A DNA stretch of 64,000 nt, taken from contig MEUE01000003.1 in assembly GCA_001771585.1 (NCBI GenBank), forward strand, positions 434,001 through 498,000. Direction: 5' to 3'. The notes beneath the pieces were generated by a model. It saw nothing but the letters and a program-made list of their open reading frames with translations, did not search any database and had not been told where the DNA came from. This DNA is from a candidate division WOR-1 bacterium RIFOXYB2_FULL_46_45. GTDB lineage: Bacteria; Margulisbacteria; WOR-1; XYC2-FULL-46-14. Position 1 is the stretch's first letter. Every line of letters starts with the position of its first letter. Positions 2,783 to 23,034 of this stretch are shown one piece after another. The position numbers and the translations under genes are program-made.

Positions 2783-3334
2783 TTATTCAACGACAAAACC
2801 GAATTTTCCCTTTGGCTTACTTTCCACTTCAATCAGCTTTCTAATTGCCTCAAAAACCTGCTGTATCTGCACTTCGTTCTTTTTAAGCCTTTTCTCAAAT
2901 TTATTTTCAAGCTGATCCACTTTTTGCGCTAAATCCTTATGCGTTGCCATGATTTTTCTTAATCTGACAAACGCCCGCATTATGGCGATATTGACCTGGA
3001 CGGCTCTCTCGCTTTTAAGAACAGAAGACAACATTGCAATTCCTTGTTCTGTAAAAACATATGGAAAATATCTCCGTCCTCCCTTCTTTGAGGTCACAAA
3101 TTGTGACCTCAAGTTTGATGTTCCAAATTGGAACTTCAAGTTTTTAAATTCCGCCTTATTTAATTGAAACATAAAGTCATCAGGAAAACGGCTCGTATTC
3201 CTTTTTACTGCTTGATTTAATGCTTTGGTTTCAACCCCATAAAGCTCGGCCAAATCCCTGTCCAACATTACCTTCTGTCCCCTAATCAAATAAATCTTGT
3301 TCTCGATCCTCTCAATAGGCACTAAATTTGTCAT
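2783..3334 (-). CDS. ORF6N domain DNA-binding protein, copy 1
   Basis: The N-terminal part ([19 protein letters not shown], then [20 protein letters not shown] and FPDDFMFQL) is the ORF6N domain found in phage antirepressor-like and mobile-element regulators. The middle holds a 9-residue tandem repeat (LKFQFGTSN / LRSQFVTSK) before [14 protein letters not shown]. The C terminus is a charged coiled coil ([17 protein letters not shown]). The start chosen is the internal ATG at 3334 because AAGGAGG lies 8 bases before it. A longer frame to 3367 has no such site. A second copy follows at 3488-4027. The role is unknown; DNA binding is inferred from the family. Confidence 0.85.
3090..3137. repeat. 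Two 21-bp palindromes with 27-bp period inside ORF6N copy 1
   Basis: At 3090-3110 there are 10-base arms (GAGGTCACAA / TTGTGACCTC) around one central base. At 3117-3137 there is a second 21-bp palindrome built the same way around TTCCAA-A-TTGGAA, with one arm mismatch. Each lies in one 9-codon unit of the tandem peptide repeat. Confidence 0.8.
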
Positions 3335-3487
3335 ATTATTATCCTCCTTATACGGGAGTACCAGCAATTTTGCCGCCTGATTTTAGGGTTTTGGGTGTGG
3401 ATGCCGGCCTGCCGGTCAGATGACCAGAATATCAGAATATCAGAAAAAAAGTGTTTGTCGCTGAAAGAGCAATAAGAACGCTTCAAG

Positions 3488-4027
3488 CTAAACAAACCCA
3501 TATTTTTTAGGCGGGGATTCCGGCGGCAGCATTAGTTTTTTGATGGCATCAAAAACAATCTGGATTTGGATCTCATCCTTTTCGAATCTTCTTTCAAACT
3601 TATTTTCAAGCTGATCCACTTTTTGCGCTAAATCTTTATGCGTTGCCATGATTTTTCTTAATCTGACAAATGCCCGCATTATGGCAATATTGACCTGGAC
3701 GGCTCTTTTACTTTTTAAAACAGAAGATAGCATGGCAACTCCTTGCTCTGTAAAAGCATAAGGGGAATACCTTCTGCCTCCTCGTTTTGAAGTCACAAAT
3801 TGTGACTTCAGGTTTGAGGTGACAATTTGGCACCTCAAAAATTCTTCTTTGGTAAGCCGGAACATAAAATCAGGAGGAAAGTTGTCCTTATTTCTATTAA
3901 CCTGCCTTTTTAAATACTTTGTCTCTACTCCATAAAGAATTGCTAGATCAAAATCAAGCATCACCTTTTGCCCTCTAATAAGATAAATTTTATTTTCAAT
4001 CCTCTCAATCGGCACTAAATTTGTCAT
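3488..4027 (-). CDS. ORF6N domain DNA-binding protein, copy 2
   Basis: This is a paralogue of the gene at 2783-3334. It shares the same N terminus through GQKVMLD, the same [14 protein letters not shown] core and the same coiled coil, and differs mainly in the DNA-contact segment ([17 protein letters not shown]) and at the C terminus. The 5' flank, including the AAGGAGG site and about 20 bases beyond, is also nearly identical in both copies, so the duplication included the promoter region. The start is again the internal ATG with the ribosome site. Divergence concentrated in the recognition part suggests that the two proteins bind different sites. Confidence 0.85.
3789..3836. repeat. Two 21-bp palindromes with 27-bp period inside ORF6N copy 2
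   Basis: At 3789-3809 the arms are GAAGTCACAA / TTGTGACTTC around one base. Relative to copy 1 the third base of the left arm and the matching base of the right arm changed together. At 3816-3836 there is a second inverted repeat with arms GAGGTG / CACCTC. The spacing of 27 bases is the same as in copy 1. Confidence 0.8.
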
Positions 4028-4135
4028 ATTATTATCCTCCTTATACAGGAATACCAGCAATTTTGCCGCCTGATTTTTGCGAATATTTTTTGATCATAAA
4101 TCGAGGGGTGTCGAAATTTCGGACAGTTTGGGCTA

Positions 4136-5243: not shown

Positions 5244-8608
<3,365 letters not shown>

Positions 8609-8631
<23 letters not shown>

Positions 8632-8995
8632 CCAATATCTCCCCGTTCACGACCCGAAATCCTTTAGTCTCTCCGTCTAATAAAGAGTGTATTACATAAA
8701 CAGTATCCGGATCATGTGCCAGGCGAATGTCTTCATCAGACAACCGGGCGGGAGAATTCGGGTGGCTGTGGTAAACCGCGATCAGGCTTAAATTTTTAGC
8801 CCTGGCATCTTTGATGGCCCTAAACTGCTCTTTGGGATCAAAAGAAAAATGCTCTTCACTCTTATCAATATTAGTCATGCGAAATAATTCAGCAGCCGAT
8901 CCTTCTTTCCCAGCTAAATATCCGCAGGCCTCTAATGGAGCTTCCTCTTTTGCATGCTTTTTGATCTCTTCTATTATATTTTTTGAAATTTTCAT
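8609..8995 (-). CDS. JAMM/Mov34 metalloprotease, sulfur-carrier processing (HcyD/Mec+ type)
   Basis: The 128-residue protein carries the full JAMM signature: E22 in EACGYL, then H76, H78, S86 and D89 in HSHPNSPARLSDED. Known relatives are Mec+ of Mycobacterium, which releases cysteine from the CysO carrier, and HcyD of Wolinella, which trims the carrier tail and is needed for homocysteine formation. Genes for sulfite reductase, an E1-like enzyme, MetY and a ThiS fusion surround it. Its start overlaps the stop of the E1 gene (ATGA). It probably cleaves after the Gly-Gly of the ThiS domain and/or releases the amino acid product. Confidence 0.88.
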
Positions 8996-9789
8996 AGATC
9001 ACATGCCGCCTGCTCATAATCGATTAATTTAGTAATTGTCGGACTGTCGCCGCAAATCGGGCAGGTTTTTGATTTTTTAATCTTTACCGTCCGGTATTCC
9101 ATCTTTAAGGCGTCAAAAATCAGCAGGCGGTTCTCTAAAAGATCGCCAATCCCTATTATATATTTCAAGGCCTCCGCCGCCTGGATTGTGCCAAGCATGC
9201 CGGCAACTGCTCCCAAAATTCCCGCCTGCGAGCAGGTCGGAACCGCATTCTTTGGCGGAGGTTCCCTAAAAACACAACGATAGCAGGCATTGCCCGGTGT
9301 GCGCGTAAAAGTCTGTCCTTCAAAACGGAGGATCCCACCGTGAGAAAAGGCCTTTTTTTCGATCACACAGGCATCATTGATTAGAAATTTGATCGGAAAG
9401 TTGTCAGTACCGTCAACGATAAAATCATAATCTTTGATAATATCAATAATGTTGGTTGAGTTAAGCAATAATTGATGGGTGACAACTTTCACATCCGGAT
9501 TAATTGCTTCCATCTTTTCTTTGGCGGATAAAACTTTTTCTTTGTTTAAGTCTTTGGTAAAGTGGATGATCTGGCGCTGCAGATTAGTCAGGTCAACTCT
9601 ATCAAAATCAACTATACCGATTGTTCCGACCCCGGCCGCCGCCAGATACATTGCCGCGGGCGATCCCAATCCTCCGGCGCCGATTATTAAAACCTTGCCG
9701 GCCAGAAGTTTTTCCTGCCCAACCCCTCCGACATTTTTTAAAATAATATGACGGCTGTAACGCTCTATCTGTTCTTCACTTAATCCCAT
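8992..9789 (-). CDS. E1-like adenylyltransferase (MoeB/ThiF/HcyF family)
   Basis: The ATP-binding loop GAGGLGS is at residues 37-43, followed by DFDRVDLTNLQRQ. Zinc is held by CYRC and CPIC, and PTCSQAGILG carries the conserved cysteine. The family adenylates the C-terminal glycine of small ubiquitin-like carriers (ThiS, MoaD, CysO, HcyS) so that it can be turned into a thiocarboxylate. The location between metY and the JAMM gene points to service in cysteine/homocysteine synthesis rather than molybdopterin. It follows metY copy 2 without any gap. Confidence 0.9.
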   Translation of the reverse strand: MGLSEEQIERYSRHIILKNVGGVGQEKLLAGKVLIIGAGGLGSPAAMYLAAAGVGTIGIVDFDRVDLTNLQRQIIHFTKDLNKEKVLSAKEKMEAINPDVKVVTHQLLLNSTNIIDIIKDYDFIVDGTDNFPIKFLINDACVIEKKAFSHGGILRFEGQTFTRTPGNACYRCVFREPPPKNAVPTCSQAGILGAVAGMLGTIQAAEALKYIIGIGDLLENRLLIFDALKMEYRTVKIKKSKTCPICGDSPTITKLIDYEQAACDL

Positions 9790-11010
9790 TTATATTGCCT
9801 CCAATGCCTGCGAAAAATCGTCAATTATATCATCGGGATATTCGATCCCGACCGAAACGCGGATCAGATCATCAGATACTCCCATATTTTCCCGTTCTTT
9901 GTCATTAAACTCAACACAAAGAGTCGAAGCGGGATGAATAACCAGGGTCTTAGCGTCTCCAATATTAGCCAAATTATAGGCCAGCCGCAAGGAATCAATC
10001 GCCTTAAAGCATTGCCGCCTATCCTTTAGCCGAAAAGTCAGGAGCGAACCGAATTTCCCGTTAAATTGTTTTTTTGCCGGATTATGGAACCGGTTATCCG
10101 CAAGCCCCGGAAAACTAACCGCTTTAACTTTTGGATGCTTTTCTAAAAATTTCGCCAAGGCAAGGGCGTTTGAACAATGCCGCTCCATCCTCAAAGATAA
10201 GGTCTCAAGGCCAATGTCGGTTAAAAAAGCGGCATTGGGGGATAAACAGGCTCCAAAATCACGAAAGACCGCTTTTCTGGTTTTGATTAAAAACGAGAGC
10301 GCTCCGTACTTTTCATCTTTCCAGTCAAAATTACCGCAATCGATTATTACCCCTCCCAGCGAATTGCCGTGGCCGTTGATAAATTTTGAGGTTGAATGAA
10401 TAACAATATTCGCCCCAAAATCTTTTGGGCGGACAAGATACGGAGTCGTGACTGTGCTGTCCACAATTAATGGGACATTATTCTTTTTGGCGATTTTGGC
10501 GATCGCGGCAATATCCGGAACATCGATCTTGGGGTTGCCTATTGTTTCAATAAAGAAAGCTTTAGTGTTGTCTTTTATCGCGGATTCAAACTGCCCGGCA
10601 TCGGCCGGATCGACAAAGGCGGTATCTATCCCAAATTCCCTGATAGTCTTATCAAAGAACGAATATGTCCCGCCAAAAATTGAATTTCCGGCGACAACAT
10701 GATCGCCGTTCTTTGCCAAAGTCAGAACCGCGCAGGTTATCGCCGCCATACCGGAGGCGGCCACGATCGCTCCCAAACCATCCTCTAAAACCGCCAGCTT
10801 TTTTTCTAATATTTCCAATGTTGGATTTGAGATCCTGGTATAAATATTTCCGGCGGCCTCGCCGTTAAAAACTTCCGAGATCTCCTCCGAGCTGTTATAT
10901 TTAAACGCGGTAGTTTGATAAATTGGCATAGTAGTCGAGCGGCGGTTTTGCTCCGGCTTATTTTCCGCGTGAACCAAAAGCGTGTCGATATGATATTTTT
11001 TGTTTTTCAT
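9790..11010 (-). CDS. metY: O-acetylhomoserine sulfhydrylase-like PLP enzyme, copy 2
   Basis: Same family as the gene at 5244, with STSKFINGHGNSLGG as the PLP-lysine region and the C-terminal [10 protein letters not shown] segment. At 406 residues it is slightly shorter than copy 1. The two copies are clearly diverged, so different acceptors (O-acetylhomoserine, O-acetyl- or O-phosphoserine) or different sulfur donors (free sulfide, carrier thiocarboxylate) are possible. It lies between the thiS::cysK fusion (5-base gap) and the E1 gene (no gap). Confidence 0.87.
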   Translation of the reverse strand: MKNKKYHIDTLLVHAENKPEQNRRSTTMPIYQTTAFKYNSSEEISEVFNGEAAGNIYTRISNPTLEILEKKLAVLEDGLGAIVAASGMAAITCAVLTLAKNGDHVVAGNSIFGGTYSFFDKTIREFGIDTAFVDPADAGQFESAIKDNTKAFFIETIGNPKIDVPDIAAIAKIAKKNNVPLIVDSTVTTPYLVRPKDFGANIVIHSTSKFINGHGNSLGGVIIDCGNFDWKDEKYGALSFLIKTRKAVFRDFGACLSPNAAFLTDIGLETLSLRMERHCSNALALAKFLEKHPKVKAVSFPGLADNRFHNPAKKQFNGKFGSLLTFRLKDRRQCFKAIDSLRLAYNLANIGDAKTLVIHPASTLCVEFNDKERENMGVSDDLIRVSVGIEYPDDIIDDFSQALEAI

Positions 11011-11015
11011 TATAA

Positions 11016-12134
11016 TTACCCCGTAAAATACTGTGCCATGCTGAAATAGCGCTCGCCGGTGTCCGGAAAAACGGTGACCACCCGTTTTCCTTTGCCTAAT
11101 TTTTTCGCGACTTTTAAAGAAGCGGAGAGCGCCGCCCCCGCAGAAATGCCGGCAAAAACCCCCTCTTCTTTCGCCAGCCGCTTTGATCCGAAAAAAGCCT
11201 CGTCATCCTCAATTGTGATTATCTCGTCAATGATCTCGCGGTTTAAAATATCGGGGATAAAGCCGGCGCCAATCCCCTGAATTTTGTGCGGCCCGGGACT
11301 TTTGCCGGATAAGACCGCAGAAGTTGCCGGCTCAACCGCGACAATTAGAACTCCCGGTATTTTTTCTTTTAAAACTTCGCCGACTCCGGTAATGGTCCCT
11401 CCGGTGCCGACCCCGGCGACAAAGGCGTCAATTTGTCCTTCGGTCGCTTCCAAAATCTCTCGGGCAGTAACCTCGCGGTGTATTTTGGGATTGGCTTTAT
11501 TCTTAAATTGCTGCGGTATGAACGCCCCTTTGGTCTTTACCAAAAGCTGTTCGGCCCTTTTTATCGCCCCGGTCATCCCTTCCGCCGCCGGAGTTAAAAT
11601 AACTTCCGCCCCATAAGATTTGAGGATATAAATCCGCTCCAGGCTCATCGATTCGGGCATGGTCAAAATACATCTATATCCTTTGGCCGCTGAAATCAAA
11701 GCAAGCCCGATCCCGGTATTGCCGGAAGTCGGCTCAATAATTGTCCCGCCCGGTTTCAGCTCCCCGCTTTTTTCGGCATCCGTTATCATGGCCAGGGCAA
11801 CGCGGTCTTTGACCGATCCCCCCGGATTAGCGGCTTCAACCTTCGCCAAAATTTCCGCCATCTCCGGCCCTACTACATGATTAAGTTTCAAAAGCGGAGT
11901 TTTTCCGATTGTTTCGGAAATGTTTGAGGCAATTGCCCCTCCTCCCATAAAATAGACAAACTCAAGCCGGTCCCCTTCTTTAATCTCCAGATTATTATAT
12001 TTCTCTTTATCAACAACTTCCCCGTTTAATTCAACCGCCACTACCGCCGGCTTAATGTTGCGGTCATTCAAAATCTCGATCAATTTCTGCCCTTTTTTGA
12101 TCTCTTCTTCTTTTCCATTTATCGATATCTTCAT
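11016..12134 (-). CDS. ThiS-like sulfur carrier fused to cysteine synthase
   Basis: Residues 1-66 are a complete ThiS/CysO-type ubiquitin fold that ends in MGGG (64-66). The chain does not stop there but runs on as [16 protein letters not shown], the start of an O-acetylserine sulfhydrylase (CysK/CysM). PLP should bind K109 in GGSVKDR; TSGNTG and GTGGTITG are the phosphate-binding loops. A carrier must normally have a free C-terminal Gly to be thiocarboxylated, so cleavage after the glycines is required, probably by the JAMM protease of the same operon. An alternative is that the ThiS part acts only as a docking domain. The gene overlaps hemL by 4 bases. Confidence 0.9.
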
Positions 12135-13204
12135 ATTTTCCTCCTTGCATGCGCTGTTGAAATAAAATTCGCTTCATCTTTTGATGGCGCGAAATAAAAT
12201 CCCTTCTCTATCATCCGCCAGAAGAACCCGGCGTATTCCTTTCTATCATTAAATTTGAAACTAAACATCGAACCGACGCGGGAATACTCCATCTTCATCC
12301 CTTCGCAAAGATATCGGGTCTTTTCTTCCAAATCTTTATAAATTTTCTTGTCTTTTAATGTTTTTAAAACTTCGATTCCAGCCGCAACCGCGACCGGATT
12401 GCCGGATAAGGTTCCCGCCTGATAAACCAGCCCAAGCGGCGCCACCTGATCCATTAAACCTTTTCGCCCTCCAAAAGCCGCCAGAGGAAAACCTCCTCCG
12501 ATTATTTTTCCTAAACAGGTTAAGTCTGCTTTTACTTTATAAAGCTCCTGCGCGCCGCCATAAGCGACCCGAAATCCGGTAATTACTTCATCAAAAATTA
12601 AAATAATTTTATTTTTATCGCAAATCTTGCGCAACCCTTCTAAAAATCCTGATTTCGGAGCAATAACTCCGGAATTTCCAGCCACCGGCTCGACAATAAT
12701 TGCCGCAACTTTATCCGAAACTAAATTTTTAACCGAACCCAAATTGTTATATTCGGCTTCAAGATAATCTTGTTCCGACCAGCCGTGATAGCATTGCCTG
12801 AACTTAATCACTTTTTTCCTGCCGGTTAGGGCGAATGCCAATTTTAACGCCCCCATCACCGCTTCCGTTCCCGACGAAACAAAGCGTACTTTCTCAATCG
12901 AAGGAAAAGCACCGCAAATCATTTTTGCCAACTCGGTCTCTTTTTCCGTCGGCGCGCCAAAACTGCTCCCGTTTTTAACGGCGGCCGTAACCGCCGCTAC
13001 TACCTTAGGATGCGCGTGCCCAAGGATCAACGCCCCCCAGCTCATAACATAATCAATAAATTTTCTATTGTTCTGATCTCTGATCTCTGCCCCCTGACCC
13101 CTTTTTATAAATATCGGCTCTCCTCCGACCGCCCCAAAAGCACGGACAGGACTGTTGACCCCGCCGACTAAATATTTTTTTGCCTGTGCAAATCTTTGGT
13201 CCAT
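12131..13204 (-). CDS. hemL: Glutamate-1-semialdehyde 2,1-aminomutase, compact form
   Basis: The protein has [10 protein letters not shown] at the N terminus, [27 protein letters not shown] and the PLP lysine in [13 protein letters not shown]. It turns glutamate-1-semialdehyde into 5-aminolevulinate, the tetrapyrrole precursor. With 357 residues it is about 70 shorter than usual: a segment after CYHG is missing, and the C terminus stops right after the ISTAH region. It overlaps hemB by 37 bases and thiS::cysK by 4 bases, so the end is real and not a frameshift. Confidence 0.92.
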
Positions 13205-14025
13205 TGTCCGACCTCTTTGGAAAAATAGGTGATTATTAAATCCGCCCCAGCCCGCTTGATCGCCGATAAGGATTCCAAAATCATTCCTTTATTCCCGTAA
13301 AGCATAGCATATTCGCCGCTGACATTATAAGCGGCTATAGTAAAATTAAATTTTTGCTTGGCTTGAAAAATAATATCAAGATAAGCCAAAGCGGGTTTTA
13401 TCATTACAATATCCGCTCCTTCTTTTATTTCAACCGCGATTCTCTCCAATGCCTCGTCTGACCTCTGATAATCAAGTTGGTAAGCCCTGCGCTCTCCGAA
13501 AGCGGGAGCAGATTTTGCCGCTTCGCGGAATGGCCCGTAAAAACCGGAAGCGAACTTGGCGGAATAGGCCAAAATTTTTACTTTATTCCCCAAGGCTTCT
13601 CTTATCGCCCTAACCTGACCCTTCATCATTGCCGACGGCGCGACATAATCCGCCCCGGCCTCCGCATGCGATCTCGCGATTTTCACCAGGGCTTCCAAGG
13701 TATTCCCCGCTCTGCAATGGCCGTCTGTTGTGTACGCACACAAGCACACATCTGTCATAACAATCAATTTGGGAAAGCTCTTTTTAATTGCCCTGACCGC
13801 ATTCTGCACAACTCCGTCCTTAGCATACGCTTCCGATCCGTTCTCGTCCTTTCTCTTCGGCAGACCGAACAACAAGATATTATCTATCCCCAATTCAGTT
13901 AGTTCCGCCAATTCAAGCAACAAATTATCCGCCGACAAACGATAGATCCCCGGCATAGAGTCTATCTTTTGCCTCTGTTTATTTCCTGCGACAACAAAAT
14001 ACGGCATTATTAAATCTTTGATCAT
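13168..14025 (-). CDS. hemB: Delta-aminolevulinic acid dehydratase (porphobilinogen synthase), compact form
   Basis: The zinc site CLCAYTTDGHC and the two active lysines (in SAKFASGFYGP and VMIKPALAY) are all present. The enzyme joins two aminolevulinate molecules to porphobilinogen. It has 285 residues against the usual 320-335; the N-terminal arm that normally wraps the neighbouring subunit is absent, because the protein starts at IMPYFVV. The ATG overlaps the stop of cobA/hemD (ATGA). Confidence 0.93.
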   Translation of the reverse strand: MIKDLIMPYFVVAGNKQRQKIDSMPGIYRLSADNLLLELAELTELGIDNILLFGLPKRKDENGSEAYAKDGVVQNAVRAIKKSFPKLIVMTDVCLCAYTTDGHCRAGNTLEALVKIARSHAEAGADYVAPSAMMKGQVRAIREALGNKVKILAYSAKFASGFYGPFREAAKSAPAFGERRAYQLDYQRSDEALERIAVEIKEGADIVMIKPALAYLDIIFQAKQKFNFTIAAYNVSGEYAMLYGNKGMILESLSAIKRAGADLIITYFSKEVGQWTKDLHRQKNI

Positions 14026-15341
14026 TTATTAAAAACCCGCTTAACCTCTTTTCTGGTCACTTCTCCAATCCAAGAGATTTTAACCCTTTTTGGGATTGTT
14101 TTATAACGTTTCTTGAAATTTCTGACCGCCGACGGGCTGGTAAACATAATCTCGTCAAAAAAACTAACATCCAAATCGGGCAGGTTTTGGGGCATTACAT
14201 TATCATAAGCGACACAACTGACTACATGAGCCCCCAGTCTTGTAAGCTTCTCTTCCAAACCTTTATCCGCCAAATTAGAACGGGGCATAAAGACTAATTG
14301 CTGTTTAATGCCTTCCTTTTTTAATTCCTGGGACAAGCCATCGGCCGATTCGATTTTTGGCACTAAATCCGCTTTAACCCCGTAATTTTGCAGCGCGGAA
14401 GCGGTTGACCGGCCAACGGCAGCAATCTTAAGTCCGGCTAAACTCCTGGCATCTAAAGCTAAATTAAATAAGCGTTCAAAAAAGTATTGCACGCCATAAC
14501 GGCTGGAAAAGAGCAGCCAATTAAACATTTCCAAATTTTTAAGCCGATGGTCAAGCTGGCTGTAATCGGCTAAAGGTTTAATTTCGATCATCGGCAGATG
14601 AAAATATGTCCCGGGCAGGAAAAATTTTTCTCCTGAAAGTCCGGTAAATAAGATCCGCCGATTATTTTTGAACCAGTCGTATTTTTTATTGGCTCCGATT
14701 ATGATTATGGCTGGAGCCGGGATTTTTTGGGCTTTTTGGGCGATATCGGCCAGGCTGCCTTCCACTTTTTTTTGAAAAATGCTCCCGGCACAAGATACAA
14801 CCGTCACCGGCGTGCGGGGAGATTTTTTATTTTGCAGTAGTTTATCAACAATACTGCCCAGATTTTCAACTGCCATATAGAGGACAATTGAAGGCAATGC
14901 CGCAATTTTTTCCCAGTCAATAGTGCTTTGACCGGAAACTTCGTGGCCGGTTGCCAAAACCACGCTGGAAGCAAATCCCCGGGCAGTGAGAGGTGTTCCG
15001 GAATAGGCCGCCGCCGCGTTGCCGGCAGTGACTCCCGGCACGATCTCAAATTCTATGTTAGCCGCACGCAAAGCATTGATCTCCTCTTTCAAGCGACCGA
15101 AGATCGAGGGATCCCCGTTCTTTAACCGGGCTACCTTCTTCCCCTCTTTGGCCCTTTTCACCATGAGGTCCGGCGATCCGTCGGAGCGGCTCAGTTTTGC
15201 CGAAAGCCCCAAAAACAGGCCGGGATCAACCAGGTAATCATAGATGATGACCTCGGCCTGTTTTAAAATATTCAAGCCTCTGGCAGTTATAAGATCCGGT
15301 CTGCCCGGCCCCGCCCCTATTAAATAAACTTTTCCAGCCAT
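14022..15341 (-). CDS. Uroporphyrinogen-III C-methyltransferase / uroporphyrinogen-III synthase fusion
   Basis: Residues 1-220 are a SAM-dependent methyltransferase of the CobA/CysG-A type (VYLIGAGPGRPDLIT, RLKNGDPSIFGR, VPGVTAG). Residues about 225-439 match HemD, uroporphyrinogen-III synthase (AAVGRSTASAL, FTSPSAVRNF). The fusion converts hydroxymethylbilane to uroporphyrinogen III and then to precorrin-2, the siroheme precursor. The methyltransferase half is shortened between LSRSDG and KRAKEGK. The operon has no precorrin-2 dehydrogenase/ferrochelatase (SirC/Met8), so that step must be encoded elsewhere. It overlaps hemC by 22 bases. Confidence 0.9.
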   Translation of the reverse strand: MAGKVYLIGAGPGRPDLITARGLNILKQAEVIIYDYLVDPGLFLGLSAKLSRSDGSPDLMVKRAKEGKKVARLKNGDPSIFGRLKEEINALRAANIEFEIVPGVTAGNAAAAYSGTPLTARGFASSVVLATGHEVSGQSTIDWEKIAALPSIVLYMAVENLGSIVDKLLQNKKSPRTPVTVVSCAGSIFQKKVEGSLADIAQKAQKIPAPAIIIIGANKKYDWFKNNRRILFTGLSGEKFFLPGTYFHLPMIEIKPLADYSQLDHRLKNLEMFNWLLFSSRYGVQYFFERLFNLALDARSLAGLKIAAVGRSTASALQNYGVKADLVPKIESADGLSQELKKEGIKQQLVFMPRSNLADKGLEEKLTRLGAHVVSCVAYDNVMPQNLPDLDVSFFDEIMFTSPSAVRNFKKRYKTIPKRVKISWIGEVTRKEVKRVFNK

Positions 15342-15940
15342 TCTTTTATCTCCCCATCGTCTTTTCTTGCCTGGATCGCCAGCGATCCCTGCCCTTTGGC
15401 AGTTTCAAAATCTAATCTTTCCGCTATGCGATCGTCCAGCCTCAAGCGAACCAGCGCCGCCGCGGCAACAATGATCGCGTCATATTCCCCCCGATCCAAT
15501 TTGTCCAGCCTTTCGTCAATATTTCCGCGCAAATCCAAAATCTGTAAATCCGGCCGGATCAAGAAGGCCTGTTCTCTTCTCCTGCCGCTGCTGGTTCCTA
15601 TCTTTGCCCCTTTGGGCAATTCGGCAAGTTTCAAATTGTTTTTTGAAACCAACGCGTCGTCTTCATCAATAGACCGCATCGTAAAAATTAAGAGCCCGTC
15701 CTTGACCGTGTCAGGCAGATCCTTAGCCGAATGGACTGCTAAATCGATCTTATTTTCAAGCAAGGCGGCCTCGATCGCGCCGGTAAAATCTACCTGATCG
15801 GCCGGACTTAATTTATCTCTGTCGCCAGCAGTCTCAAAAATAACTATTTCATAATCCGCTTCCGGAAGCAGGCTTTTTGCCTCTTTTACCTGCGCCAGCG
15901 CTAAGCGACTGCCGCGGGTGCCAATTCTAATTTTCCGCAA
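15320..15940 (-). CDS. hemC: Porphobilinogen deaminase (hydroxymethylbilane synthase), truncated two-domain form
   Basis: Domains 1 and 2 are clear: RIGTRGSRLALAQ, HSAKDLP with the catalytic Asp, IGTSSGRRREQ, and RGNIDERLDKL, ending in GQGSLAIQARKD. The protein stops at residue 206, whereas the family has about 310. The missing third domain carries the cysteine that holds the dipyrromethane cofactor, and this protein contains no cysteine at all. The next gene begins 22 bases before its stop, so no third domain is hidden in another frame. Whether it can build the cofactor in another way is open. Confidence 0.88.
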   Translation of the reverse strand: MRKIRIGTRGSRLALAQVKEAKSLLPEADYEIVIFETAGDRDKLSPADQVDFTGAIEAALLENKIDLAVHSAKDLPDTVKDGLLIFTMRSIDEDDALVSKNNLKLAELPKGAKIGTSSGRRREQAFLIRPDLQILDLRGNIDERLDKLDRGEYDAIIVAAAALVRLRLDDRIAERLDFETAKGQGSLAIQARKDDGEIKEWLEKFI

Positions 15941-16680
15941 AATATTCTCACCTCTTCGTCAACTATTTCTTTGGCTTTTATCGCTTCAAATTTCCGTTCC
16001 AATAAATTGGCACTGATTTCTTCTTTAATGTCATTAATATTTAACAGTGTAACTCCGGGAACCAAAACCACTTTCGGATCAATGTCCCTGGGCACAGCCA
16101 GATCGATAATTATTAATGGTTTAATTCTTTTACCAATCTGATCTTTCTTTAAAATCAAATGCGGAGCGGAAGTCGAACTTATCACCAAATCCGCGTCTTT
16201 TATTTCCTGCGCCAGGCGATCAAAACGCACTGCCCGTCCACCAATGCTTTCCGCAAGCTTTTTCGCCCCGGCAAAAGTCCGGTTGGCTACCAGAACAAAA
16301 CTAAAATTCCTTTTCATTAAATTTTTTAAAACCACGCGGCTTACTTTGCCGGAACCGATCAAAACAATTTTTTTGTCCTTCTCTTCCAACAGCTTATCCG
16401 CCTGGGCGACTGCGGCTGATGCGATTGAGACATTGCCGCGGGAAATCCCTGTTTCCCTGCGCACCCTTGCGCCTACAGCCACTGCTTGAGCAAAAAGGTT
16501 TTTCAAGCCGATATCTTCGGCTTTGAGGCCCGCCCGTTTGACTTGCCCCAAAATCTCCCACTCCCCCAAAATCTGTGACTCCAACCCTGCCGCCACCCGA
16601 AACAGGTGCCTGACATTTTCAACCGAAGGCTCCTGATATAATTCAACCCGATTGCAAGTTCTCAAAAGCACCCCCTTCAT
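15901..16680 (-). CDS. hemA: Glutamyl-tRNA reductase, compact form
   Basis: The catalytic cysteine is C9 in RTCNRVE, followed by LESQILGEWEILGQVK, RETGISRGNVSIASAAV and a Rossmann loop VLIGSGKVS. The enzyme reduces glutamyl-tRNA to glutamate-1-semialdehyde. Only 259 residues are present against about 420. About 45 residues before TCNR, roughly 30 between the active-site segment and the LESQILGE block, and the C-terminal dimerisation domain are missing. The start overlaps the permease stop (ATGA) and the end overlaps hemC by 40 bases, so the short form is genuine. Confidence 0.9.
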   Translation of the reverse strand: MKGVLLRTCNRVELYQEPSVENVRHLFRVAAGLESQILGEWEILGQVKRAGLKAEDIGLKNLFAQAVAVGARVRRETGISRGNVSIASAAVAQADKLLEEKDKKIVLIGSGKVSRVVLKNLMKRNFSFVLVANRTFAGAKKLAESIGGRAVRFDRLAQEIKDADLVISSTSAPHLILKKDQIGKRIKPLIIIDLAVPRDIDPKVVLVPGVTLLNINDIKEEISANLLERKFEAIKAKEIVDEEVRIFCGKLELAPAAVA

Positions 16681-17633
16681 AAAAACACCTTTGTCAGAAA
16701 AAATCCTACGCTAAAAGAAATAATCGGCGTAATTGACCAGGTTAAAAATATTCTGCGGGTGGCTTTCTCATTAAAAATATGCCTTTCGTGTTTTACAACG
16801 CCGATCGCCATTACCGACAAGGCGCTAAGCTGCACCAAAGACTGGGGAATCCCCATAAGGGAGGCAAAAAGCAACAAGGTGGCCGTTACAACCCCAACCA
16901 AAGACGAAGAAATTAAACCTAAAGGAACAATTTCTTCGCCCAATGTTTTCATAATCCGTTTTCCTATAAAAAGACCGCCGGCGCCAAATAAAAGAGCCAC
17001 AACCGCCAATCCCAATATCGGATCAATTAGTCCGGCACCGGCAAGAGGACCGACCGCATTGGCAACATTGTTGGTTCCGGCCGCGAAGGCAATATAGCAG
17101 GAACTGGCAAAAGCCAGTGTTTTAAGGTTTTTATCTTTATTAAAAATATGCTGATAAAGCCACAAGTTATTGAGCCTGGGCGGATAAATTATCTTGTACA
17201 AAAAATAAGTAATGGCAAATCCCAGCACCGGCAAAATTATCCAAAAAGGAATAATTCGCCATAAAGTCGCGATTTCTATTCTGCCCAAAGCGAGGCCGAC
17301 TCCGGAAAGAGCAAAAACAGTAGTCCAGCTGGTTGACTCGGGAACCCGCAAAAGATTGGCAATTATTAATCCGGAAACCGCGGCCAGCAAAATCACCAAC
17401 ACAACATCAAAAGTTATATGCCCCGAAGGGATAATTTTTTCACCCAAGGTCTTCGCAACATTTTGCCCGGCCAATACAGCTCCCAAGAGGATAAAGACGG
17501 TAAACCAGATTACCGCCTTTTTATGATCGATCAACTTTGCCCCAAATAATGTGGCAAAAGAGGGAGCAAGATTGCTCGCTCCCATGCTCATTGCGAAAAT
17601 CAATACGCTAAATATTAATAAAACTACTTTCAG
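16677..17633 (-). CDS. PiT/CysP-family permease, probably for sulfate
   Basis: The protein has two inverted-repeat signatures of the PiT family (MGASNLAPSFATLFGAK and AGTNNVANAVGPLAGAG) and about ten membrane helices. Bacillus CysP, a sulfate permease, belongs to the same family, and the place between cysH and hemA in a sulfur operon suggests sulfate rather than phosphate. I set the start at CTG (17633), inside the cysH stop as C-TGA, with AAGGGAG 7 bases upstream. An in-frame TAA lies just before it, and the first normal start (TTG at 17603) would remove most of the first helix. Confidence 0.82.
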   Translation of the reverse strand: MKVVLLIFSVLIFAMSMGASNLAPSFATLFGAKLIDHKKAVIWFTVFILLGAVLAGQNVAKTLGEKIIPSGHITFDVVLVILLAAVSGLIIANLLRVPESTSWTTVFALSGVGLALGRIEIATLWRIIPFWIILPVLGFAITYFLYKIIYPPRLNNLWLYQHIFNKDKNLKTLAFASSCYIAFAAGTNNVANAVGPLAGAGLIDPILGLAVVALLFGAGGLFIGKRIMKTLGEEIVPLGLISSSLVGVVTATLLLFASLMGIPQSLVQLSALSVMAIGVVKHERHIFNEKATRRIFLTWSITPIISFSVGFFLTKVFL

Positions 17634-18355
17634 ATTCCATCTCCCTTAACATTTGTCAGCGGTCTGGTATGAATTCCGCATTCGCCGCCGCATTTTGATG
17701 TTCCGATCCAGCGTCCCGCTCTCTCGTTGTCCTCGCTGGTAATCTTTGTGCATGGTTCGCACCCCAACGATCTGTACCCTAATTTATAAAGAGGATTGAC
17801 CGGAATCTGATAAAGAGCCAGATATTGCCAAACTTCTCTCTCTTTCCAGATCAAGATCGGATTTAATTTAATCAGGTCTTTATCTCTCTCTTCAACTTCC
17901 CTAAAATCGGTCCTGGTTCTCCCCTCTGTGCAGCGAAGTCCGGTTACCCAGCAGGAAACTTTCATCTCTTCCACCGCCCGGCGGACCGGCTCAACCTTTA
18001 AAATGTCGCAGCACTTATCGGGATCAGTCTCATATAATTTATCCGGTATATCCGCTTCGTCATTGGCGTAAATTTTCAGCTCCGGATATCTAGCGACCTC
18101 GTCATTCATAAATTTTTTGGTCTCTTTCGGCTTAAACCTGGTCGTAACGATAAACCCCCTGATCTTGGGACTGACTTTCTTGGCAAGATCCCAAACAACC
18201 ACCGAATCTTTTCCCAGACTATTCGCGACAACCAACCCCTCCCCGTATCTTTTATATGCCTCATCAATTAATGCCAGAGACCTGTCAACCTTCTCCTTAA
18301 AATTTAAATTGTCAACTAAATACTTCAAATCATCTTTATTTTCTAGCAAACCCAT
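17630..18355 (-). CDS. cysH: APS/PAPS reductase
   Basis: The N-terminal SLGKDS loop binds the nucleotide. Cysteines C115-C116 (KCCDILK) and C199/C202 (GCEPC) form the 4Fe-4S site typical of enzymes that use adenosine 5'-phosphosulfate, and C226 in GGECGIH is the catalytic cysteine. The enzyme reduces activated sulfate to sulfite for the sulfite reductase of the same operon. AGGAGG lies 5 bases before the ATG. No ATP sulfurylase or APS kinase gene is seen in the window. Confidence 0.93.
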   Translation of the reverse strand: MGLLENKDDLKYLVDNLNFKEKVDRSLALIDEAYKRYGEGLVVANSLGKDSVVVWDLAKKVSPKIRGFIVTTRFKPKETKKFMNDEVARYPELKIYANDEADIPDKLYETDPDKCCDILKVEPVRRAVEEMKVSCWVTGLRCTEGRTRTDFREVEERDKDLIKLNPILIWKEREVWQYLALYQIPVNPLYKLGYRSLGCEPCTKITSEDNERAGRWIGTSKCGGECGIHTRPLTNVKGDGI

Positions 18356-18369
18356 TTTCTCCTCCTTAA

Positions 18370-18822
18370 TTATATTGAATAATCCAAATATTTTTTTGTC
18401 TTCGCGATATTTTTTTTCTGCCTTTCCTTCAAATTCTCAAAAGTGATATTGTCGACCTTTTCGGCAATCATCTTGCCAATATCACAAAAGACCTCGCGCA
18501 ATACGCAATTGCCGGAATAATTGCAGGGACTCGGCTTTGCCGCAAAAGCACAAGAGATCGGCTCTACCGGCCCGTCGACAAAACGGACAATTTGCCCTAA
18601 AGTGATCTGGGCCGGCTTGTGGGCCAGAACATATCCCCCATTTCTCCCGCGCAAGCTCTTTACGAACCGTCCCTTCTTAAGCTGTAACAATATTTGTTCC
18701 AAAAATTTATAAGGGATGTCCTGCCGCTTGGATATCTCATCCACACTCTGCGGCTTGTCGTAATACATAGCCAGATCCAAAACCGCCTTCAAGGCGTAAT
18801 CCCCTTTAAATGTTATCTTCAT
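18370..18822 (-). CDS. Rrf2-family transcriptional regulator, first gene of the sulfur operon
   Basis: The winged helix-turn-helix part (DYALKAVLDLAMYY, YKFLEQILLQLKKGRFVKS, RGRNGGYVLA) defines the Rrf2 family, which includes CymR and IscR. Four cysteines (C91, C100, C106, C113) could hold an Fe-S cluster as in IscR/NsrR, whereas CymR senses cysteine through CysK. It is the promoter-proximal gene, 14 bases before cysH, so it probably controls sulfate assimilation and itself. The signal (Fe-S status or cysteine level) cannot be told from the sequence. Confidence 0.9.
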   Translation of the reverse strand: MKITFKGDYALKAVLDLAMYYDKPQSVDEISKRQDIPYKFLEQILLQLKKGRFVKSLRGRNGGYVLAHKPAQITLGQIVRFVDGPVEPISCAFAAKPSPCNYSGNCVLREVFCDIGKMIAEKVDNITFENLKERQKKNIAKTKKYLDYSI

Positions 18823-19425: not shown

Positions 19426-19617
19426 TCAGCCGCCGCCGACAAAAGAGACGATCTCCACCCTATCCCCATCCTTGAGCGCGGGATTTTCTCCGCGGGGAAT
19501 AATTGATCCGTTTAATTCGATCACCAGATTTTCGGGATGCAGATTGAGAACCGCAAGCAGTCCTGCTGTATCTTCTATATTATATGCGGATTCTTTGCCG
19601 TTAATTGTTAATCGCAT
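19426..19617 (-). CDS. thiS: Free-standing sulfur carrier protein ThiS
   Basis: The 63-residue beta-grasp protein ends in FVGGG, giving an exposed glycine tail for adenylation and thiocarboxylation. It donates sulfur to thiamine thiazole synthesis or another sulfur-transfer reaction. It overlaps the E1 gene thiF by 10 bases. Unlike the ThiS domain of the cysteine synthase fusion, it needs no processing beyond a possible loss of one glycine. Confidence 0.88.
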   Translation of the reverse strand: MRLTINGKESAYNIEDTAGLLAVLNLHPENLVIELNGSIIPRGENPALKDGDRVEIVSFVGGG

Positions 19618-20222
19618 AATTTATAAACCGCCCAGGCCTGATATGCCGCCGCGACCGAAACACGCGCACTGATCAATCCGGCGCCGCAGCCGCATTTGGA
19701 CCTTTCATCTCCTATCATAACAAAATCCGGCCTAATATATTTAATCTTTATGTCTTGAGGATCCCCATCCCCCGCCAAACCGGAGACCGCGACCACCTTG
19801 AACCCGTTCACAAGAAGGGTATTGACCAGCATCGCCTTCTGGTCGGCGCAATCGAAACATTCGGCCACCACTTCACAGTTCTTGAATTTTTCTATTATAT
19901 TATTAGGATTTAGTTTTTGTTTAGAAATTCGTATTTCGGATTTCGCCTGCCTGCCGGCAAGGCAGGGATTTATTTTCAGGAGGAGATTTTTCAAGGTTTC
20001 CACCTTCGCCTTGCCAATATCCTCCTGAAAATACTGCTGTCGGTTCAAATTGCTCGGTTCAATCACATCAAAATCAACCAAAACCAGGTTGTCGGCCCCC
20101 ATGCGGACCAGATTAATCGCAAGATTTGATCCCAGCCCGCCGCAACCGGCAATCCCGATCTTTTTGCCCTTGAGCTTCTCCCTAACCCCCTTGGTATTTC
20201 GTTCAAAAATCCCGTTGTCCAT
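19608..20222 (-). CDS. thiF: ThiF-type adenylyltransferase for ThiS
   Basis: The short ThiF form has GIAGCGGLGSN as ATP loop, DFDVIEPSNLNRQ as E1 motif, and a C-terminal KCGCGAG. I place the start at 20222 (MDNGIFERN) because TATAAT stands 6 bases upstream, which fits a leaderless transcript. The longer frame to 20282 would run into the divergent lipoprotein gene. A GC-rich palindromic element (19946-19966) encoding LAGRQA plus flanking EIRISKQ is inserted in frame after NPC. Together with thiS this is a second carrier/E1 pair next to the sulfur operon. Confidence 0.85.
   Translation of the reverse strand: MDNGIFERNTKGVREKLKGKKIGIAGCGGLGSNLAINLVRMGADNLVLVDFDVIEPSNLNRQQYFQEDIGKAKVETLKNLLLKINPCLAGRQAKSEIRISKQKLNPNNIIEKFKNCEVVAECFDCADQKAMLVNTLLVNGFKVVAVSGLAGDGDPQDIKIKYIRPDFVMIGDERSKCGCGAGLISARVSVAAAYQAWAVYKLCD
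19946..19966. repeat. GC-rich hairpin element inside thiF
   Basis: Arms CCTGCCT and AGGCAGG enclose GCCGGCA. It reads as part of the LAGRQA segment. The adjoining AT-rich piece also looks repeat-like, so the insertion is probably 50-60 bases in all. Confidence 0.65.
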
Positions 20223-20228
20223 TTTATT

Positions 20229-20234
20229 ATTATA
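20229..20234 (-). promoter_or_regulatory. -10 box of thiF (leaderless type)
   Basis: TATAAT on the minus strand, 6 bases before the ATG of thiF; no ribosome site is present. Confidence 0.6.
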
Positions 20235-20261
20235 TACTATAATCCCCGAGGAGGGATAAAT

Positions 20262-21671
20262 ATGAAAAATATCAAACATCAAACTTCAAAATCCAAAATA
20301 AATCCCAAAGCCCAAAGCCCAACTTCAAAATTTGGGATTTGGAAGTTTGTGGTTGGGATTTGTTTGGCAGTTGGGATTTTGCTGTTGGGATTTTCCGTTT
20401 TGATGGTTGGCTGCGGAAAGCAGGGGAGCGGATCCTCAACCAGCGGCTACACCATACTGGGGATTGTTCCAAACTCCCAGACCCAGGCGCTCTCAATCGG
20501 AGCCAAAGCGACCGCGGTTACACACATTGTCGCGGTTGATTCAAACGGACAGAAAACCCAGGCAACCTTAAGCTCCAACGGAAGCTTCAGCGTTCCGGTC
20601 ACCAAAGGATATCCTTATGCTTTGGGTTTTTATAATAAGAGTGGAACCGTTATCACCCTGCTTGGATACCTTAAACAAAAAGATGTGAATTGGGACTCTC
20701 TTCCGCTTATGAACCCCAGCGGAAGTTCAACCGATCTTGGAACGGTAACAGTCGAGGCAACCAGTCAGGAAGCTATTCCATCAATTAATCTGACCACCTT
20801 AATTAACCAAATGAGCATGGTTGACCAAACCACTGCCTCCTACTACGGGCAGATCGACGGACCAATGGCGGTTTTAACCAATGTGGATGTCGACGGCAAC
20901 GGGGTATTTGATTTTGAAGAAAACAAATCCTATCTTTTCTGGGCCGATATGCAGTTTACCACGACTTCCGAAATCCAAAGCATGTTGACCGATTATGCGG
21001 ATTATATTCCAACAGTAGCCTCTTACGTTTACCAGTTCATTTTCACCGAAGGGGGACAATCGACTGCGGGCAGACGCGCCACCATGACACCCCCCGGAAC
21101 CACCCTTGCTTCCCAAACCGGCGACGCAGCCGCCAACCGCACCGAATGGGTCTTCTCTTTCGGCGCCGGACTCGCTTCGCCAACCGCTCCTCCCAGCGGC
21201 ACCTATACTATTGAAGTTACAGGAGGCGTAGGCACCTACCGCCTCCAAAATTTCCAGCCAAGCCAGATATCTTATGTCGGCGCAACCAACGATATTATTT
21301 ATCCCGTCCTAAAAATAACCACGGATGAAGCGGGCTACATAACGCGCATATCCCATCAGTGGAAAATAAGGAAAAGCGGAGTTGCCCGCAACGCCACCGC
21401 CGAAGAGATCAAAACGGTAGAAGATACCCAGGTCAACACTTCGCGCGGGTTCTCCCACAGCAGTCCGTTTTTTAGTTTTAATTTCAGCGACGGGGCCTCC
21501 ACCAGCCCGTTAAATTTTTACAGGGATAATAGTTACACCGATATTACAACCGTAACCATCGACGATACCGCTTCAAGCTCCAGGCGGGTCTTATATTCTG
21601 ATGTAACATTAATTTCCGTAACTTATAATTTAACCTCAAGAACTGTTCACCGGTTTTGGTTTAGTAAATAA
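20262..21671 (+). CDS. Lipoprotein of unknown function, paralogue 1
   Basis: A long polar N-terminal stretch made of repeat-like sequence (20272-20345) is followed by a hydrophobic segment and the lipobox MVGC. The mature part begins GKQGSGSSTSGYTILG and is mostly beta-rich. DVDGNGVFDFEE at about residue 207 is a calcium-binding loop of EF-hand/dockerin type. The next gene is a clear paralogue with the same order of motifs. AGGAGG stands before the ATG. The protein is probably anchored in the outer or inner membrane; its task is unknown. Confidence 0.78.
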   Translation: MKNIKHQTSKSKINPKAQSPTSKFGIWKFVVGICLAVGILLLGFSVLMVGCGKQGSGSSTSGYTILGIVPNSQTQALSIGAKATAVTHIVAVDSNGQKTQATLSSNGSFSVPVTKGYPYALGFYNKSGTVITLLGYLKQKDVNWDSLPLMNPSGSSTDLGTVTVEATSQEAIPSINLTTLINQMSMVDQTTASYYGQIDGPMAVLTNVDVDGNGVFDFEENKSYLFWADMQFTTTSEIQSMLTDYADYIPTVASYVYQFIFTEGGQSTAGRRATMTPPGTTLASQTGDAAANRTEWVFSFGAGLASPTAPPSGTYTIEVTGGVGTYRLQNFQPSQISYVGATNDIIYPVLKITTDEAGYITRISHQWKIRKSGVARNATAEEIKTVEDTQVNTSRGFSHSSPFFSFNFSDGASTSPLNFYRDNSYTDITTVTIDDTASSSRRVLYSDVTLISVTYNLTSRTVHRFWFSK

Positions 21672-21684
21672 GGGGAGGAAAAAA

Positions 21685-23034
21685 ATGAAAAAGACACTTT
21701 CGATCGTTTTTGGTTCGCTTCTTGTGATACTGCTTCTGCTTGGGGTTGTCATCCACGGCTGCGGGAAGCAGGGCGGCGGATCCTCAACCGGCGGCTACAC
21801 AATTTTGGGAACTGTCCCCAACGCCCAGACCCTGGCGATGGGTATCGGGGCCAAAGCGACCGCGGTTACCCATATTGTCGCGATTGGAGCAAACGATTCG
21901 AAAACCATCGCGACCCTAGACACGACCACCGGTTCTTTTACCGTTCCCGTAACATCGGGCTATCCCTATGTCCTCGGTTTCTTCAACAAAAGCGGCGGCG
22001 CGATAACACTGCTGGGCTATCTTAAGAAGGCCGATGTGGCATGGGAATCTCTCCCTCTTATGAATCCGGTCGGCAGTTCGACCAATTTGGGAACGGTGAC
22101 GGTTGAAGCAAGCTCCGTTGAAGCAACCCCTTCAATTGATGTCACAACTTTAATCGGTCAGATGAATATGAACCTTGCAACCGCAAATCTCTACGGAGCA
22201 ATTGACGATCCCCTGACCGCACTAACCAACCTGGACATGGACGGGAACGGCGAATTTGATTTCCAGGAAAACAAGGACTATCTCTTCCAAATTTATGTCG
22301 GGATGAATACCAGCGGAGCGTATGTCACAGGAGAAATTGATGCCATGCTCTCGGACTACAATTCTAGCTATATTCCAAATCCCGGTTATTATCAATATGT
22401 TTTAGCCGCAAGAGGAGATTCTAAGACCGCCGGTACCGCCGGAACGATCAGTTTTCCGGAAGCGATTACCTCCGCCGGAGGAACAACTTATACCAGCGGA
22501 ACCGGAGCAGTCGGGAATGTAGATTCCAATGCCTGGTCGCTCTTCTTTAGCCTAGGGAGCAATCCGGCTACCTGGCCCGCCACCGCGCCGAACGGAACCT
22601 ACACTATGGAGGTCGGGACATCAATCTATACCGTTAAAAATTTCAAGGCGACCAATGTTTTGGCTTTGGGATCGAACAATAACATCATCTATCCGGTCTT
22701 CCACCTTGTCACCAACGAAGCCGGTTATATCACGACCGCGCAATACAAGTGGAAAAAACTTAACAATGGAACAATTGAAAACGCTACCGCCGCAGAGGTG
22801 CAAGCGATTATCGAAGATACCGCCAATGTTACGACCGGTTTCTCCCATACCAGCCCATTTATATCATTTTTCTCCGATGCGAACACTTTATATGGGAGCA
22901 TCATAAAATTCAGCCGCGACGGGACATCGGTTGATGTAAGTTCGATCGGAAACGTCAAGCCGGCAGACGTGCACCATATCCAGTTTTCTTATAACCTAAG
23001 CTCTCGGGTGGTCTGCAAGTTCGATATGCGGTAG
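21685..23034 (+). CDS. Lipoprotein of unknown function, paralogue 2
   Basis: A normal signal peptide (KKTLSIVFGSLLVILLLLGV) leads to a lipobox-like HGC. The mature protein repeats the plan of paralogue 1: GGYTILGTVPNAQT, AKATAVTHIVA, LLGYLKK, and a calcium-loop motif DMDGNGEFDFQE. The two genes are 13 bases apart and result from tandem duplication. The clean signal peptide here supports the view that the extra N-terminal stretch of paralogue 1 is an insertion. Confidence 0.8.
   Translation: MKKTLSIVFGSLLVILLLLGVVIHGCGKQGGGSSTGGYTILGTVPNAQTLAMGIGAKATAVTHIVAIGANDSKTIATLDTTTGSFTVPVTSGYPYVLGFFNKSGGAITLLGYLKKADVAWESLPLMNPVGSSTNLGTVTVEASSVEATPSIDVTTLIGQMNMNLATANLYGAIDDPLTALTNLDMDGNGEFDFQENKDYLFQIYVGMNTSGAYVTGEIDAMLSDYNSSYIPNPGYYQYVLAARGDSKTAGTAGTISFPEAITSAGGTTYTSGTGAVGNVDSNAWSLFFSLGSNPATWPATAPNGTYTMEVGTSIYTVKNFKATNVLALGSNNNIIYPVFHLVTNEAGYITTAQYKWKKLNNGTIENATAAEVQAIIEDTANVTTGFSHTSPFISFFSDANTLYGSIIKFSRDGTSVDVSSIGNVKPADVHHIQFSYNLSSRVVCKFDMR

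Follow-up and report, generated by a model that had tools for sequence, protein, structure and literature searches.

A ThiS–cysteine synthase fusion as a putative pro-carrier for JAMM maturation in bacterial sulfate-assimilation clusters

A sulfur carrier fused to cysteine synthase heads a sulfate-assimilation cluster

The window analyzed here is a 64,000-nucleotide stretch of the genome of a candidate division WOR-1 bacterium. Its minus strand carries a sulfate-assimilation cluster headed by a gene that joins a ThiS-type carrier to a cysteine synthase, followed by genes for MetY, a rhodanese-less E1, a JAMM protease, a sulfite reductase–TusA protein (SiR-TusA) and a second MetY (Table 1). The JAMM gene, initially placed four reading frames downstream of the fusion, is actually the third gene after it, behind those for MetY and E1. 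At its start the fusion gene shares 4 bases with the end of hemL, and at its other end 5 bases separate it from MetY1. The plus-strand frame at the position of the fusion contains many stops. Both the hemL-hemA order and the PiT-type permease are conserved in the clusters of relatives. A carrier role in the thi pathway fits the separate ThiS of the window, which has a Gly-Gly end and its own thiF, and not the fusion.

Table 1. Features of the sulfate-assimilation cluster and contrasting thiamin-type genes, in order of decreasing coordinate
Feature	Position	Strand	Basis
ThiF (family 2) of the thiamin-type ThiS (contrast)	19608..20282	minus	NF006395, TIGR02354 above cut-off
Separate thiamin-type ThiS, ends ...FVGGG* (contrast; outside the system)	19426..19617	minus	
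Rrf2-family regulator	18370..18822	minus	Pfam
PiT-type permease and PAPS/APS reductase CysH	16677..18355	minus	CysH: Pfam, NCBIfam; permease: sequence reading
hemL, hemB, cobA-hemD, hemC, hemA (siroheme supply), directly upstream of the fusion	12131..16680	minus	names from sequence reading
ThiS-CysK fusion gene, 372 aa, ATG start	11016..12134	minus	ORF, Pfam, NCBIfam
ThiS part (ubiquitin-like sulfur carrier), residues 1-66	11937..12134	minus	PF02597 5-66, TIGR01683 3-66
Gly64-Gly65-Gly66 junction GGAGGAGGG, predicted cleavage after Gly66	11937..11945	minus	50/50 fusions; pLDDT
Linker AIASN, residues 67-71	11922..11936	minus	length and sequence unconserved in relatives
CysK-type cysteine synthase part, residues 72-367	11034..11921	minus	TIGR01139 above cut-off
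MetY1, O-acetylhomoserine sulfhydrylase-like	9790..11010	minus	TIGR01326 above cut-off
E1-like ThiF/MoeB adenylyltransferase without rhodanese	8992..9789	minus	Pfam, NCBIfam
JAMM metalloprotease, HcyD-like, 128 aa	8609..8995	minus	PF14464 E 4e-23
Sulfite/nitrite-reductase-type hemoprotein fused to TusA/SirA domain (SiR-TusA)	6520..8631	minus	Pfam, NCBIfam
MetY2, ordinary homocysteine synthase	5244..6518	minus	NF006096 above cut-off

The preliminary description of the gene as ThiS joined through GGG-Ala to cysteine synthase is borne out, with both domains complete in Pfam (ThiS, residues 5-66, E 6e-11; PALP, 72-358, E 4e-71) and in NCBIfam (TIGR01683 thiS, 3-66; TIGR01139 cysK, 72-367, each above its curated cut-off). 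The ThiS part ends in MGGG, and Ala67 is the first of 306 residues that follow the GGG at 64-66, five of which separate ThiS from CysK. The PLP lysine of the synthase lies within SVKDR (residues 107-111). In the predicted structure, ThiS and CysK form two ordered parts, and the MGGGA junction (63-67), with pLDDT values below 50, is predicted to be flexible. A PDB fold search, which bears on the CysK part, listed CysK-family structures in its top 50. The synthase scores 440 bits against TIGR01139, above the cut-off, compared with 296 bits against the CysM-type model TIGR01138, whose cut-off is 394. No other close CysK homologue is present in the genome, where the next match (31% identity) is at an ordinary threonine synthase; a serine acetyltransferase gene, cysE, is present.

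The signatures of the neighboring enzymes are intact. The JAMM protein retains E22, H76-S-H78, S86 and D89 (HxHx7SxxD), and its nearest solved structures are 2kks, 2kcq and JAMM1 (5lda/5ld9). The E1 comprises 265 amino acids and ends after its ThiF domain, with CxxC pairs at 169 and 243 and a putative active-site Cys 186 in TCS. MetY1 matches the solved MetY structure 3ri6, which to judge by its citation is the Wolinella enzyme, with 326 bits versus 286 for MetY2, and MetY2 scores higher on ordinary enzymes. Judged from its sequence, MetY1 is likely to be a homocysteine synthase that uses a carrier thiocarboxylate.

The fusion recurs in several phyla

Whole-genome protein searches covered 74 genomes of the window's phylum, 384 of Omnitrophota, 248 of Elusimicrobiota and 296 of Nitrospirota, and a DNA pattern scan was added for a genome collection representing 84,980 species. 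Together they yielded 50 distinct fusions, distributed among Omnitrophota (22), Nitrospirota (13), Margulisbacteria/Saganbacteria (10), Elusimicrobiota (3) and Zixibacteria (1), with one unassigned; L007 and L115 are identical and were counted once. A further fusion from Sumerlaeota (L177) is cut by a contig end and stands outside the 50. The DNA pattern demanded MGGG and is thus biased, whereas the protein searches are free of this requirement, and every fusion they recovered also has GGG. No fusion appeared among the ten best matches listed in a plasmid search. We found no published ThiS–cysteine synthase fusion in the open-access literature, to which the search was confined.

Unfused neighbors can differ from the fused genes by just a few bases around the stop, as would be expected of a missed stop or an assembly frameshift. 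Such an artefact is nonetheless already refuted by 50 distinct proteins from independent assemblies with widely varying linker lengths, and we give it practically no weight. Chance or assembly error was also rejected on the ground that the same architecture is found in five named phyla.

The GGG motif is constrained as protein sequence

An alignment of the 50 fusions reveals that GGG is identical in all of them, although their ThiS parts average 47% pairwise identity; besides GGG, only a few residues of the fold are invariant. From GGG to the conserved LIGxTP of CysK, neither length nor sequence is maintained, and lengths differ widely; the exception is a PFSDR-like motif in one group, mainly Omnitrophota. 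Each of the three glycine codons shows synonymous variation, so the constraint acts on the protein and not on a DNA signal, and the idea that GGG is a mere by-product of a ribosome-binding site was rejected on the same evidence.

The sequence GGAGG occurs within the glycine codons of 93 of 134 unfused carriers versus 22 of 50 fusions (p 0.002). This difference is expected if GGAGG serves ribosome binding of the next gene, and in unfused carriers it probably doubles as such a site. In these genes, the GGAGG is often found a few bases ahead of the next gene. Given how common it is there, and given an ATG right behind GGG in some Omnitrophota fusions, separate CysK might be made by internal initiation at GGAGG, with the fused product as a by-product. 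We regard this as very unlikely, since fewer than half of the fusions carry GGAGG, several fusions, including those of G047, G049 and G057 (L004, L007, L013), have no ATG, GTG or TTG within 16 codons past GGG, and the C-terminus of the carrier would stay unfreed. Internal initiation was accordingly rejected after a check of the codons and of the possible starts.

Fused and split forms interchange, and separate carriers bear tails

A maximum-likelihood tree built from 94 CysK sequences requires 18 changes between the fused and the unfused state (17-19 across bootstrap trees), and at least 8 of these are forced by well supported branches. In the sister genus G073, whose CysK is 84% identical, the pair is split by a stop (...MGGGLL*) ahead of a separate CysK gene. 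Such repeated switching is most easily understood if both forms ultimately yield the same two proteins.

Among standalone carriers in JAMM clusters of the window's phylum, 23 of 24 have a tail of 1 to about 40 residues after GGG, the sole exception being that of G005. In contrast, only 5 of 22 thiamin-type ThiS proteins of the same phylum are tailed, while 17 end at GGG or AGG (Fisher p 3e-7, with related genomes treated as independent). With those five tailed members, the thiamin-type proteins are an imperfect control. Nitrospira carriers usually have a tail of exactly one residue. Tail lengths from 0 to about 300 thus form a continuum, of which the fusion is one end.

The G073 cluster holds two carriers, one with the tail LL before CysK and one with the tail QYNER beside the JAMM gene (L073, 9948-10169 and 13620-13865). 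Short tails after GGG are also seen in the thiamin-type ThiS proteins of L356, L361, L364, L371 and L373, with no JAMM detected within 1.5 kb.

A short JAMM accompanies tailed and fused carriers

Of the genomes with a fusion, 42 of 47 encode a short JAMM scoring over the Pfam cut-off, as do 30 of 32 whose separate carrier is tailed. The figure is 8 of 30 for arbitrarily chosen genomes used for comparison and 0 of 8 for genomes that have the orthologous CysK and no adjacent ThiS (ThiS being sought beside CysK only); these counts treat related genomes as independent. The HxHx7SxxD signature is kept in 103 of 103 neighboring JAMM proteins. Clusters with JAMM also hold tailless carriers (G005), and thus the protease probably has another role, such as adduct hydrolysis. 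Its presence alone does not prove that the fusion is cut.

Five fused genomes, all drafts of unstated completeness, are without a JAMM over the cut-off (G083, G086, G089, G427, G334). They would suit a fusion that is never cut, its ThiS part serving as a docking or regulatory domain or persisting as a relic and its CysK working in fused form with free sulfide. A precedent for fused carrier-like domains appears in an earlier survey, which describes some ThiF proteins with a fused N-terminal ubiquitin-like domain that co-occur with a separate ThiS (PMC1779556). We nonetheless consider permanent fusion improbable. A docking domain would need no C-terminal GGG, yet this motif is kept in every fusion beside a free-running linker, and most such clusters, with their E1, JAMM and acceptor, would have no visible carrier. 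The closest analogue, mycobacterial MoaX, is inactive unless cut after Gly82 by a protease not identified in that work (PMC4326299).

A second, longer JAMM family of about 200 amino acids occurs in most genomes of the phylum independently of the cluster (G000:C3:111347-111655). Clusters in Nitrospirota commonly run in the order ThiS, CysK, E1, a threonine-synthase-like (ThrC-like) enzyme, a second E1 and JAMM (L103-L213, e.g. L104, L188), and thus have two different E1 enzymes per visible carrier.

A proposed maturation pathway and its known counterparts

We consider it quite likely that the fusion is a pro-carrier that would be matured by the JAMM of the cluster and then loaded with sulfur for MetY1. 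The steps that we infer from the gene content are as follows. The HcyD-like JAMM would cut after Gly66, the second and the third Gly of the GGG both being possible sites. The products would be a ThiS-type carrier whose Gly-Gly end is free and an ordinary CysK that keeps a short stub at its N-terminus. Once freed, the carrier would be adenylated by the E1 and converted to a thiocarboxylate by sulfide that the SiR-TusA protein supplies. MetY1 would use this thiocarboxylate to make homocysteine, with CysK as a possible second user. The same JAMM may also release homocysteine from the carrier adduct. CysK would be a passenger simply because its gene comes next and the two genes are closely coupled. 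Given a JAMM that trims tails, losing the thiS/cysK stop would cost little, and hence fusion and fission would recur.

The nearest known counterpart is the HcyS system of Wolinella, in which the JAMM protein HcyD trims one residue from HcyS, as reportedly described by Krishnamoorthy and Begley (2011). Both combine in one cluster a ThiS-type carrier extended beyond Gly-Gly, a JAMM protein, here with its zinc signature, a rhodanese-less E1, MetY and sulfate/sulfite reduction (for the HcyS/HcyD pathway, see PMC6225789 and PMC5764234). What follows Gly-Gly is an entire cysteine synthase here and one residue there, and many relatives of the present cluster have a threonine-synthase-like enzyme in place of MetY. 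For the present cluster, HcyS-type cleavage, thiocarboxylate formation at the last Gly and transfer to acetylhomoserine are putative.

Fusions with a similar layout are known for molybdopterin synthase. DrJAMM cuts the Deinococcus MoaD-MoaE protein (DR2607) and leaves a C-terminal Gly (PMC8832034). Like MoaD-MoaE and MoaX, the present protein has an N-terminal ubiquitin-like carrier, an internal Gly-Gly and a C-terminal enzyme in a genome that encodes a JAMM. Cleavage after Gly is needed for function in those proteins, and comparative evidence argues for such a cut here. Unlike in MoaD-MoaE, where the passenger is the partner of the carrier, CysK is probably not an obligate client.

In the CysO-CysM-Mec+ system of Mycobacterium tuberculosis, a ubiquitin-like carrier, a JAMM and a cysteine synthase are likewise encoded together, and Mec+ frees the product from the CysO-cysteine adduct (PMC3227635). 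Its genes are separate, the synthase is of the O-phosphoserine-using CysM type and the E1, MoeZ, has a rhodanese domain, whereas the present genes are fused, the synthase is CysK-type in a genome with cysE, and the E1 lacks rhodanese. The cluster also resembles the class 4e operons described by Iyer, Burroughs and Aravind (2006, PMC1779556), which include ThiS/MoaD-like, JAB, rhodanese-less E1, SirA and sulfate assimilation genes. The relevant part of that survey reports ThiS fused to sulfite reductase in Actinobacteria and no cysteine synthase fusion.

A broader parallel can be drawn with ubiquitin itself, although the proteases differ and the function here is that of a sulfur carrier. In eukaryotic ubiquitin–ribosomal protein fusions, a proteolytic cut after Gly-Gly sets ubiquitin free from a passenger that is unrelated to it and is produced in the same amount. 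If the proposed cut occurs, JAMM maturation of ubiquitin-like carriers would extend from the trimming of one residue or the separation of carrier and partner to the release of a complete enzyme, through a fusion that was gained or lost repeatedly across several phyla. The carriers offer a natural series of zero, one, few, forty and three hundred extra residues in which to study cut-site choice by a de-ubiquitinase-like protease.

The client of the carrier is probably not CysK alone

The preliminary description considered the fusion a self-delivered carrier made together with its acceptor enzyme. Its first part, that the JAMM frees the Gly tail, gains support from the invariant GGG, the dispensable linker, repeated fusion and fission, the tails of separate carriers, and the co-occurrence and co-loss of JAMM. 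Its second part, with the fused CysK as acceptor, would mean that carrier and client are made 1:1 and that sulfur is handed to CysK, as mycobacterial CysM takes sulfur from CysO-COSH before Mec+ releases cysteine (PMC3227635). ThiS and CysK do adjoin or fuse across the surveyed phyla, and the cluster is without MetY1 in most fused Saganbacteria. We find this second part doubtful, though with a real chance of being correct. The synthase is CysK-type (TIGR01139) and not CysM-type, such that, with cysE in the genome, the ordinary acetylserine/sulfide route is available.

The distribution of neighboring genes also bears on the client. The position of MetY1 in most fused relatives is occupied by a threonine-synthase-like PLP enzyme, the ordinary threonine synthase usually being encoded elsewhere in the genome, and this ThrC-like enzyme thus substitutes where MetY1 is missing. 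Within one set it was found in 19 of 20 fused and 16 of 16 split genomes, and in none of the 8 genomes in which the orthologous CysK stays without adjacent ThiS or short JAMM. Furthermore, the lineage of G060 and G061, which a quick CysK tree nests among the fused Saganbacteria, has a cluster that lacks ThiS, E1, JAMM and the ThrC-like enzyme but has kept CysK. From this pattern of co-loss and co-retention it follows that the carrier module accompanies MetY1 or the ThrC-like enzyme, and hence homocysteine synthesis, and that CysK can manage without it. CysK as the sole client is weakened accordingly, and the enzyme may instead be a second client.

The ThrC-like enzyme is a candidate thiocarboxylate-dependent homocysteine synthase, and the finding points to an enzyme of this activity that is as yet unassigned; at least one more homocysteine pathway has been said to await discovery (PMC5764234). 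Somewhat more speculatively, and with less than even confidence, we propose that the system is a bacterial counterpart of the ubiquitin–ribosomal protein fusions. The carrier would have evolved repeatedly as a cleavable leader of an unrelated enzyme encoded beside it, with JAMM making the stop dispensable, and its client in most of these phyla would be an undescribed ThrC-like thiocarboxylate-dependent homocysteine synthase, probably using O-phosphohomoserine.

The ThrC-like enzyme has an N-terminal CRECGREYP motif, and in four phyla its gene lies between those for ThiS-CysK and for E1/JAMM (L072:12419-13645 (+); L338-L347). The last residues of the SiR-TusA protein are KEGGN; the GG end is absent in the single relative compared (G057), and several relatives encode TusA on its own. 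Elsewhere in the window, two closely similar minus-strand ORFs with a common start sequence lie in tandem at 2783-3367 and 3488-4060, resembling a duplication. Two paralogous ORFs at 20262-21671 and 21685-23034, also in tandem, look like lipoproteins and share a start that resembles a lipobox, GCGKQG.
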